From positions 62,001 through 126,000 of the forward strand of contig NZ_JAMJWG010000016.1 of the NCBI RefSeq assembly GCF_024435355.1: a DNA stretch of 64,000 nt, written 5' to 3'. Both the position numbers and the translations under genes were made by a program. Below are positions 23,014 to 25,124 of the stretch, piece after piece. The notes beneath the pieces were generated by a model that was given only the letters and a program-made list of their open reading frames with translations, had not been told where the DNA came from and made no database searches. Source of the DNA: Streptomyces odontomachi (GTDB taxonomy: Bacteria; Actinomycetota; Actinomycetes; Streptomycetales; Streptomycetaceae). How positions within the stretch are numbered: position 1 is the first letter of the stretch; each line of letters opens with the position of its first letter.

Positions 23014-23907
23014 TCAGACCTGCTGGAGCAGGCTCCTGAGCAGATCACGGGTGTCGGCGGGGCCCGGGGCGGTCTGCTGGAGTTCGGTCATGGCGCGTTC
23101 GTACTGCTCGACGTCCTCGCGTTTGTCGAGGTAGAGGGCGCTGGTGAGCTGCTCCAGGTAGACCACGTCGGAGAGGTCGGACTCGGAGAAGCTGAGCATG
23201 GTGAACGCCCCGGACTCGCCGGCATGACCGCCCGCGCTGAAGGGCATGATCTGCAACGTGACATTGGGCCGCTCGGAGACCTCTATCAAGTGCTGCAACT
23301 GACCGCGCATCACGTCACGCCCGCCGTACGGCCGGTGCAGGGCGGCCTCGTCGAGGACGATGCGGAACTCGGGCGCGTTCTCCGAGACGAGTACTTTCTG
23401 CCGCTCGAGTCTCAGCGCGACACGGCGCTCGACCTCCGCGGCGGAGGCCCCCTTCATGCCGCGCGAGACGACCGCGTGCACATACGCCTCGGTCTGCACG
23501 AGACCGTGCACGAACTGCACCTCGTACAGCCGGATGAGGGAGGCGGCACCTTCCAGGCCGATGTAGGTCTGGAACCATCCGGGCAGTACGTCGGAGTAAC
23601 TGTGCCACCACCCGGCGACGTTGGCCTCCTTGACGAGCGAGAGCAGCGCCTCCCGCTCGGTCTCGTCGGCCACGCCGTAGAGCGTCAGCAGATCCTCGAC
23701 ATCCCTCACCTTGAAGCTCACCCGACCCAACTCCATGCGGCTGATCTTCGATTCGGAGGCACGGATCGTGTAGCCCGCTGCTTCGCGGGTGATACCGACC
23801 GCTTCCCGCAGCCGTCTCAGGTGCGAGCCCAGCAGGATGCGCCGCACCACCGAGCCCCCACCGGTGCCCGATGCCTGGGGATAGCCCCAAGACTGCCCTG
23901 CGGTCAC
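23014..23907 (-). CDS. XRE-family regulator with DUF5753 domain (WhiJ-like)
   Basis: 297 residues from GTG at 23907, with GGAGGG eight bases upstream. The N-terminal Cro/C1 helix-turn-helix is at about 25-80 (LGSHLRRLREAVGITREAAG...SKISRMELGR). The rest is the actinobacterial DUF5753 effector domain (LPGWFQTYIGLE, LYEVQFVHGLVQTEAYVHAV, MRGQLQHLIEVSERPNVTLQIMPF). Members such as WhiJ control development together with neighbouring DUF397 and ATP-binding (AbaA-like) genes, exactly the partners found here. It is divergent from the ATP-binding gene, and a 29-nt motif lies in the shared upstream region. Confidence 0.9.
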   Translation of the reverse strand: MTAGQSWGYPQASGTGGGSVVRRILLGSHLRRLREAVGITREAAGYTIRASESKISRMELGRVSFKVRDVEDLLTLYGVADETEREALLSLVKEANVAGWWHSYSDVLPGWFQTYIGLEGAASLIRLYEVQFVHGLVQTEAYVHAVVSRGMKGASAAEVERRVALRLERQKVLVSENAPEFRIVLDEAALHRPYGGRDVMRGQLQHLIEVSERPNVTLQIMPFSAGGHAGESGAFTMLSFSESDLSDVVYLEQLTSALYLDKREDVEQYERAMTELQQTAPGPADTRDLLRSLLQQV

Positions 23908-24070
23908 TTCGTCAGCCCTCCTACACCGTCTTCAGGATGCGAAGTCTGCCACTAAAACGCTCCACCCCGTACTCATCCGGTTACGGAAACAGAGAATCCA
24001 CGAAAGTGCACTACGGAAAGTTCCAGGAATAAATACTGCACAACCCGCGCGATGGCGAGCATACCGGGCA

Positions 24071-24099
24071 CGTGCACGTGCATCTGCCCTTGCATCTGC
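24071..24099 (+). promoter_or_regulatory. 29-nt motif upstream of the ATP-binding gene, shared with the DUF397 promoter
   Basis: CGTGCACGTGCATCTGC, three bases, then TGCATCTGC. The same 29-nt sequence, differing at two of the three spacer bases, appears in the same orientation upstream of the DUF397 gene (25124-25096). Distances to the starts are about 100 and 107 bp. It contains the self-complementary GTGCAC/CACGTG and a repeated GCATCTGC. A likely operator for the XRE regulator. Confidence 0.7.
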
Positions 24100-24198
24100 C
24101 CTACGCATTGGGAACGATGGTCACGCATCACATACCACGGCAGCACCACCGCAGCACGCCAGCAAGCGCTACGGCCGCGAAACCCGGGAGTGCCTCGC

Positions 24199-24687
24199 AT
24201 GGGGACGAAGAGATCGACCATGCTCGTCGATCCGTTAAGGCAGGGACTTCCTCCGCTCGATCCCGCGACGGCCTCCAGCGCTGCATCCTGCGCTCTGCAC
24301 GCACGCTACGAAGCGGTGCGTGACGCCCGGCAATTCACCCAACGAACCCTATACGGCTGGGGTTTGGCGAACCGCTTCGACGATACCTGTCTGGTCGTTT
24401 CCGAGCTGGTGACCAACGCCCTGAAGCACGCCTTGCCGTCGGACGCCATGTGCGAGGGAGAGCCGCCGGTCCGGTTGCACCTGATGCACTGGACGTCACG
24501 TCTGGTGTGTGCGGTACGCGATCCGAGCCAGGAGAGCCCGGTCGCGGTCGAGCCGGAGGCGGCGGACCTGGCGGCGGAGTCGGGGCGCGGCTTGTACCTC
24601 GTCGAGTCCTTCAGCGACGGATGGGGATGGCATCCGCTGGCGGGGGCGCTGCGCGGCAAGGTCGTGTGGGCGCTGTTCCACGTGTGA
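24199..24687 (+). CDS. ATP-binding protein (HATPase_c_2, RsbW/SpoIIAB-like), WhiJ-locus type
   Basis: 162 residues from ATG at 24199. GHKL-fold landmarks: N-box ELVTNALKH at 69-77, the G1 region around VRDPSQ (Asp108) and the Gly-rich GRGLYLVESFSDGWGW at 129-144. Such small stand-alone domains act as anti-sigma factors/serine kinases; many Streptomyces copies lie next to XRE and DUF397 genes. Codon 13 is TTA (24235-24237), the rare leucine codon read by bldA tRNA, which suggests translation late in development. The 29-nt motif lies ~100 bp upstream. Confidence 0.88.
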   Translation: MGTKRSTMLVDPLRQGLPPLDPATASSAASCALHARYEAVRDARQFTQRTLYGWGLANRFDDTCLVVSELVTNALKHALPSDAMCEGEPPVRLHLMHWTSRLVCAVRDPSQESPVAVEPEAADLAAESGRGLYLVESFSDGWGWHPLAGALRGKVVWALFHV

Positions 24688-24748
24688 CGCCGCCTTCCGC
24701 GCCCTCGAGTCGCCGTCCGGTCCGCCGCTTCAGACGGGAAGGGCGGGG

Positions 24749-24988
24749 TCAACCCGCCACGAGATGGTCGAACTCACCATCTTTGATGCCCAGCAGCATG
24801 GCTTCAATCTCGGCACGCGTATAGACCAGGGCCGGGCCATCGGGGTCCCGTGAATTGCGTACCGCCACTTCTCCCCCAGGCAGTTTGGCGAACTCCACGC
24901 ACGAACCCTGGGAGTTGCTGTGCCTGCTCTTCTGCCAGGCGACTCCGTGAAGCTCCGTGGCCGCCATGCCGTTGTACACGTGGTGCAC
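24749..24988 (-). CDS. DUF397 domain protein
   Basis: 79 residues. The start chosen is the GTG at 24988 because GGGGAG lies six to seven bases before it and homologues begin with a similar HVYNGMAATELHG; the ATG at 24967 is less well supported. The conserved DUF397 core WQKSRHSNSQGSCVEFA...VAVRNSRDPDGPALVYT is complete. DUF397 proteins accompany XRE/DUF5753 regulators and are thought to modulate them. Its promoter carries the same 29-nt motif as the ATP-binding gene, though the genes converge. Only 61 bp separate the two 3' ends. Confidence 0.88.
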   Translation of the reverse strand: MHHVYNGMAATELHGVAWQKSRHSNSQGSCVEFAKLPGGEVAVRNSRDPDGPALVYTRAEIEAMLLGIKDGEFDHLVAG

Positions 24989-25095
24989 AGGTTGCTCCCC
25001 GGTGGTGCAGTGGTCAATGTGGCGTTTGTTGCAGCGGTCAACTGCTTCGGAATCATAGCTGTGTCCACGTGTAAACGCATGGGCATATGCACCTT

Positions 25096-25124
25096 GCAGA
25101 TGCATGAGCAGATGCACGTGCACG
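25096..25124 (-). promoter_or_regulatory. Second copy of the 29-nt WhiJ-locus motif, upstream of DUF397
   Basis: Read on the minus strand it is CGTGCACGTGCATCTGC-TCA-TGCATCTGC; 27 of 29 positions equal the copy at 24071-24099. It is oriented toward the DUF397 gene and ends ~107 bp before its start. Confidence 0.7.

Follow-up and report, generated by a model that had tools for sequence, protein, structure and literature searches.

The 64-kb stretch of Streptomyces odontomachi DNA analysed here (the window) carries a locus of the whiJ/abaA/bldB type, in which the two genes beside the WhiJ-type regulator are each preceded by an operator of the same design. Both operators start with the palindrome TGCACGTGCA and continue as 12-bp direct repeats (TGCATCTGCnCA, consensus TGCATCTGCnC(A/G)) towards a putative −10 hexamer. 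The core is kept at both promoters of all same-genus orthologous loci in which these could be read, the sites are nearly unique in each genome of the genus, and the distance between core and −10 on the side of the DUF397 gene is quantised in whole repeat units. By analogy with related regulators, the WhiJ-type protein probably binds both arrays and thereby drives or gates an anti-sigma-like effector together with its DUF397 antagonist.

Two things about the WhiJ/BldB/AbaA clusters continue to occupy research on Streptomyces development: their function, and the retention of ten or more of them in streptomycetes. For a cluster that probably ranks among the most conserved, the present analysis provides a base-level predicted operator and names the two promoters that this operator would serve.

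Two operators in the window

The pattern CGTGCACGTGCATCTGC-N3-TGCATCTGC has exactly two matches in the window, at 24071–24099 on the plus strand and at 25096–25124 on the minus strand, and none in 100 shuffles. The two 29-nt copies are identical at 27 of 29 positions, the N3 (CCT or TCA) being the sole difference, and end 99 bp before the ATG of the abaA-like gene (24199) and 107 bp before the GTG of the DUF397 gene (24988). The preliminary description of this DNA had placed two such copies at near-equal distances upstream of both genes, where they are indeed found. It had also suggested a single operator for both partners. The same core does stand at both promoters, but the 29-nt motif is only the best-conserved part of longer arrays of the 12-bp repeat, and there are two of these arrays.

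We will use the terms operator A and operator D for the arrays upstream of the abaA-like and the DUF397 gene. Operator A (24071–24099, plus strand) reads CGTGCACGTGCATCTGC-CCT-TGCATCTGC, with its core at 24073–24082. Operator D (25058–25124, minus strand) has the core CGTGCACG followed by four 12-bp units with one extra base (TGCATCTGCTCA, TGCATCTGCAAG plus G, TGCATATGCCCA and TGCGTTTACACG) and a 10-bp linker; the copy at 25096–25124 is its distal part. A putative −10 of the abaA-like gene, AACGAT (24113–24118, plus strand), is located 40 bp from the start of core A, and AACCAT or AACGAT occupies this offset in 75 of the 81 loci described below. The putative −10 of the DUF397 gene is TATGAT (25052–25057, minus strand). 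Judged from these positions, the two promoters seem to share one geometry, in which the hexamers would act as −10 and the proximal repeat unit would lie over the −35. The expected −35 position holds part-matches to TTGACA, namely TTGCAT on the abaA side and ATGCAT on the DUF397 side.

Two further observations concern these promoters. A sigma-E-type −10 for the abaA-like gene has been considered and rejected, as no CGTC-like element is seen by eye at a suitable spacing from GGAAC. About 10 bp downstream of TATGAT, a strongly conserved CAGTTGAC box is located on the minus strand (window ~25030–25045), which is perhaps another binding site.

The regulator gene (23014–23907, minus strand) encodes a WhiJ paralogue with an XRE helix-turn-helix (Pfam HTH_31, 6e-15) and a DUF5753 domain (5e-60). 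Its true start may be further downstream, because the first ~17 residues are not conserved. The abaA-like gene (24199–24687, plus strand) encodes an anti-sigma-type ATPase (HATPase_c_2, PF13581, 1.4e-11), and the third gene (24749–24988, minus strand) a BldB-like DUF397 protein (PF04149, 1.4e-19), whose start is best taken as the GTG at 24988–24986, given the GGGGAG-N6-GTG conserved in the locus alignment. The Pfam assignments thus confirm the trio of XRE/DUF5753, ATP-binding and DUF397 genes that had been named from the letters alone, and the window has the composition of a whiJ/abaA/bldB-type cluster, with HATPase_c and DUF397 genes neighbouring an XRE/DUF5753 regulator. Among the three proteins, only this regulator is of a recognised DNA-binding kind; its binding to the motif and the developmental role of the locus, both proposed in the preliminary description, are presumed here. 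A TTA codon is located near the start of the abaA-like gene (24235–24237), and 80 of the 81 orthologues contain one. TTA codons imply bldA-dependent translation, which for the abaA-like gene would be layered on top of the operator.

Structural comparison adds little. Neither the regulator (E ≤ 0.01) nor the DUF397 protein (best E 0.47) has a solved relative in sequence searches. A weak structure model (30 sequences, mean pLDDT 63.5) has no Foldseek match at E ≤ 0.001, and its top rows are XRE domains such as ClgR and C.Esp1396I, which are uninformative on DUF5753. A PADLOC search gave no match.

Conservation, spacing and related loci

The comparison is based on a regulator-based scan, from which the best 80 of 468 relatives have been kept (L021–L100; 79 with Streptomyces titles and one titled 'Actinobacteria bacterium OV320'). 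Together with the window, they form the 81 loci. A second set contains 29 loci, 10 of which have D regions identical to those of first-set loci, and a third set comes from genomes picked for their deviant look; L175 and L183 are common to the second and third sets. In all 80 related loci, the trio has one arrangement, with the AbaA-like HATPase_c and the BldB-like DUF397 genes beside the XRE/DUF5753 gene.

The core TGCACGTGCA is present upstream of both the abaA-like and the DUF397 gene in 81 of 81 loci and in 29 of 29 loci of the second set. Among divergent same-genus loci (n = 13), it is found on the abaA side in all 13 and on the DUF397 side in all 11 that have the DUF397 gene in the stretch. 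The preliminary description had tied its proposal to the presence and conservation of the motif at orthologous loci, and it is kept there without exception. The longer CGTGCACGTGCATCTGC is exact on the abaA side in 70/81 loci and on the DUF397 side in 71/81. When the promoters are aligned, the operator ranks as the best-conserved 24-bp block on either side, narrowly ahead of the ribosome-binding and start regions, and the A-side block TGCACGTGCATCTGCCCTTGCATC reaches a mean column identity of 1.0 over the 81 loci. Slippage can expand repeats, and the number of D-side units does vary, but a functionless origin of the two copies, by chance or by recent duplication, can be dismissed: it is already contradicted by this near-perfect column identity and by the retention of the core in all 81 loci, in divergent loci of the genus and also in two families outside it.

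The regulator itself is near-universal, with a best match to P0001 at E ≤ 1e-110 in 132 of the 132 genomes that represent the genus in the order sample, among them that of the window. Its helix-turn-helix is almost invariant across same-genus orthologues (the regulator profile holds 80 of 81 rows, L028 having been left out for a stop codon inside the aligned stretch).

A search across Streptomyces genomes, already proposed in the preliminary description, finds the 16-mer GTGCACGTGCATNTGC in 119 of 121 genomes of the genus, with 218 sites in total or 1.8 per genome. About 0.014–0.018 sites per genome are expected by chance, and the reversed pattern used as control gave 6 matches. Exactly one site per strand is present in 93 of the 121 genomes, and a geometry of opposite strands ~1 kb apart is seen among the matches listed. 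The other 28 genomes have other site counts. A regulator orthologue at E ≤ 1e-100 is found in 27 of these deviant-looking genomes, and the 28th, which is 79% complete, gave none. The core is present at A in 27/27 and at D in 22/22 readable loci; in the other five, the DUF397 gene was not found in the stretch (three) or the upstream DNA is cut off (two). In at least two genomes, G027 and G087, a 16-mer site also occurs outside the locus. In the window's own 10.6-Mb genome, the 22-nt inner pattern is exact at the two operator sites only. The next-best matches, L003 and L004 (1 and 2 mismatches), have been rejected as further sites, since they fall inside open reading frames and have no WhiJ-type neighbour by eye in the lists of these frames. 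The site counts thus make the motif, by and large, a private operator of the trio locus and not a global one. Such near-confinement is in keeping with a local, dedicated regulator.

The distance from core to TATGAT on the D side is 40+12k (+0/1) bp in 81 of 81 loci: 40 bp in 65, 41 in 3, 52 in 3, 53 in 1, 64 in 6, 65 in 2 and 76 in 1. (One first-set locus reads as 10 by a looser expression and as 40 by a stricter one; the stricter reading has been used.) Since the 12-bp steps match whole extra units, the D arrays consist of two to five units. The second set has 23 loci at 40, 4 at 41, 1 at 52 and 1 at 64; the third has 18 at 40, 1 at 52, 2 at 76 and, by the looser expression, 1 at 39; in the divergent same-genus loci, the spacing is 40 in 11 of 11. 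Mapped onto a tree of 110 regulator genes, the unit number must have changed at least six times, so the 12-bp steps are not one inherited event. The abaA side is unexpanded, with ATGGT at 43 bp in 76 of 81 loci, at 44 bp in 4, and not found in 1.

An additional conserved block, GTAAC...GAGTAC...AGTGGCAGACT, is located before the regulator gene (23942–23990, minus strand) and stands out by column conservation in the 81 loci and in a 30-locus set. It is operator-free and is presumably the regulator promoter.

Homologues at 58–62% identity in two other families of the order, f2 and f3, retain the site. Outside the genus, the core is found on the abaA side in 10 of 11 loci (L207 has one mismatch) and on the DUF397 side in 9 of 10 scored, a tally that leaves out L205 and L206, which lack abaA/DUF397 neighbours. 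In f2 (one locus, L204), the DUF397 gene follows the regulator co-directionally and a single shared site lies between the regulator and the abaA-like gene; in f3, DUF397 is located elsewhere and has a site to itself. A 13-mer count in 15 f2/f3-type genomes gives one to three sites in 13 of them, with 4 matches for the reversed control.

Paralogous loci are abundant: 31 DUF5753 and 41 DUF397 matches are found in the genome of the window (with some frames holding several DUF397 matches), counts that may be slightly inflated because the assembly (10.6 Mb, 119 contigs) is listed with 6.56% contamination. DUF397 stands directly behind the regulator in 24 of the 29 other own-genome loci compared. 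In all 30 loci of the P0004 paralogue (own genome C25:147218; L211–L240), DUF397 immediately follows the regulator and the abaA-like gene is divergent, and in 29 of these a conserved block, CACTTGGCAAG-N3-CACTCTG followed by CAGAGTG, lies upstream of the regulator. Its pattern (CACTTGGCAAGNNNCACTCTG...CAGAGTG) is found once in 37 of 61 genomes, never twice, and is absent in the rest, with no control match. The P0004 paralogue also carries TGGCACACTG, which resembles the conserved block upstream of the window regulator. In a sister paralogue (L210, L322–L325), one 12-bp array is shared by abaA- and DUF397-like genes that point away from it, and its sequence is similar to that of the window arrays but not the same: the repeats are TGCAAGTGCATC/TGCAATTACATC in L322–L325 and have other letters in L210. 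These sequences tentatively support a rule of one private site per transcription unit with an abaA- or DUF397-type gene. Upstream of another WhiJ paralogue of the own genome, L131 (C65), a perfect 16-bp tandem repeat CTTCCATGCCCGGCAG has been observed.

Regulation of the two promoters

The locus may be viewed as a closed two-promoter regulatory circuit. The WhiJ-type protein would nucleate on the palindromic core and spread over the adjoining 12-bp repeats up to the −35/−10 at both promoters. The invariant core would then be the nucleation site and the proximal unit, at its fixed distance from the −10, the point of action, while intervening units could be added in 12-bp steps. By analogy with WhiJ9/iosA and whiJ/SCO4542, the protein would most likely activate both promoters. 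The DUF397 product would antagonise it, so that effector and brake are co-produced under negative feedback. The DUF397 gene would have an operator to itself, as it is located away from the divergent whiJ/abaA promoter region.

A bolder version, which we consider attractive but somewhat short of probable, describes a transcription factor whose whole ancient regulon consists of two promoters of its own locus, one for an effector and one for its antagonist. Matched cores would keep the two in lockstep, and evolution would tune the strength of the antagonist promoter alone by inserting whole 12-bp repeats (2 to 5) between core and proximal site, both of them fixed, in the manner of a cooperative filament that extends from the core. 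More generally, the present analysis predicts insulated, paralogue-specific switches. Its quantised arrays (2–5 repeats) offer a natural series for studying how such a protein assembles on DNA, and with the DUF397-side site the proposed WhiJ–BldB feedback becomes directly testable.

Several observations weigh against the two-promoter circuit or limit it. In f3, the −10 could not be placed. The f3 homologues L205 and L206 have the same recognition helix as the site-bearing L208/L209 and yet have neither partner genes nor site, so helix and site are not strictly coupled. A general 12-bp period for WhiJ paralogues was considered and is unsupported by the own-genome loci: at their best lag, 7 of 30 loci exceed the largest of 60 block shuffles, and of these seven the window locus alone has a best lag of 12. 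The WhiJ9 repeat, searched at a 12-bp period with up to 3 mismatches, matched in 72 of 121 genomes, and the reversed control also matched some, which gives no support. If the locus is of the SCO3421 type discussed below, sigma-E would be a further input. Finally, an array over the expected −35 is equally compatible with repression.

The alternative that deserves most attention keeps the same protein and sites and reverses the sign: the WhiJ-type protein would repress both promoters over the −35, and the DUF397 protein or a DUF5753 ligand would release it. We regard this as possible but clearly less likely than activation. The proximal repeat covers the expected −35 of both promoters, where the abaA-side TTGCAT part-matches TTGACA. 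The model published for whiJ (Ainsa 2010, according to PMC6262351) makes WhiJ a repressor whose binding is prevented by SCO4542, and SCO1979 is listed among autoregulatory XRE proteins (PMC12565409). On the other hand, mere part-matches at the −35 (TTGCAT, ATGCAT) suit dependence on an activator, although this is not decisive, and iosA activation depends on WhiJ9 (PMC10294661). Nor is there an evident case for simple autorepression, given the ~80 bp between the site and the conserved block that precedes the regulator gene.

It seems improbable that a different, global regulator of the Bld/Whi type binds the sites, which would then merely mark two developmentally controlled promoters. The identity of the binding protein rests on inference, the TTA codon in 80 of 81 abaA-like genes ties this gene to bldA control, and SCO3423/3424, the probable orthologues, appear in sigma-E target lists (PMC10771440, PMC6767563). 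Against this stand the roughly two sites per genome, found at the trio locus in each orthologous same-genus locus examined. More improbable still is a type II toxin-antitoxin pair of the XRE and DUF397 proteins with the operator as autoregulatory site. Such pairs have been proposed by comparative genomics (Makarova 2009, as cited in PMC6262351), but overexpression of 14 S. coelicolor DUF397 proteins gave no clear toxicity (PMC10364602), the XRE and DUF397 genes are not an operon here, and the sites precede the abaA-like and DUF397 genes. Binding of both arrays by the WhiJ-type protein, with joint control of effector and antagonist, thus remains the preferred explanation.

Comparison with known systems

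SCO3421 is a WhiJ paralogue present in nearly all complex actinomycetes, and the anti-sigma gene adjacent to it nearly always bears a TTA codon in Streptomycineae (PMC4255298). Because the regulator is near-universal and a TTA codon is found in 80 of 81 abaA-like genes, the present locus is probably of the SCO3421/SCO3423/SCO3424 type, an assignment made from these two features. SCO3424 has been described as 'similar to AbaA and BldB' and is listed with a sigma-E-type promoter, whose printed sequence differs from the operator and the TATGAT promoter found here (PMC6767563); SCO3423 is among the sigma-E targets (PMC10771440). In the available parts of the literature on SCO3421/3423/3424, no description of an operator of the present kind has been found. 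The string TGCACGTGCATCTGC has no match in the literature searched, and the operator can be called unpublished only as far as that search goes.

The window regulator belongs to the same NCBIfam family as SCO1979, NF058600 (388 bits, cut-off 350). The SCO1979 regulator has reportedly been the subject of a study by Zhu et al. in 2020 (as cited in PMC10364602 and PMC12565409). The P0004 paralogue fits this family better (462 bits, the best among the proteins scanned), and differs from the window regulator in having DUF397 directly behind it and another site, CACTTGGCAAGNNNCACTCTG.

The whiJ cluster of S. coelicolor (SCO4543, with SCO4542 and SCO4544) has the same three components, namely an XRE/DUF5753 regulator, a DUF397 protein and an anti-sigma-like ATPase (PMC6262351, PMC4255298). 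It differs in its distribution, as SCO4543 is found in four or fewer streptomycetes (Chandra & Chater, PMC4255298), whereas the locus described here is near-universal. No operator sequence for whiJ has been found in the available parts of these two papers.

The closest parallel is WhiJ9 of S. venezuelae (Avramova et al. 2023, PMC10294661), which binds to direct repeats located between iosA and whiJ9 and on which the activation of iosA depends. In both systems, a WhiJ paralogue stands beside a BldB paralogue and short direct repeats lie upstream of a neighbouring gene, and the units are unequal, in binding at the WhiJ9 site and in conservation here; BldB-family proteins have been proposed to link to loci of the WhiJ9/iosA type (PMC10294661). 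The window thus has the tandem direct repeats upstream of a neighbour gene and lacks the WhiJ9 consensus, the repeat being CGXXCTCAAC there and TGCATCTGCnCA here. WhiJ9 has one site 113 bp upstream of the transcription start, as against two sites 40+12k bp from predicted −10 hexamers in the present locus, and its binding has been measured, whereas here it is inferred. Among 30 loci with the WhiJ9 pattern, none matched the profiles of the regulator, the abaA-like or the DUF397 protein; one of them, L310 (3 mismatches), has a helix-turn-helix reading frame ~1 kb away at the end of the stretch, and the best match, L298 (1 mismatch), has no such gene. Because the repeat consensus differs, the operator described here resembles that of WhiJ9 in general kind without being identical to it. 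That a WhiJ paralogue can bind direct repeats is already known from WhiJ9, and the operator of the present locus is a variant of that kind.
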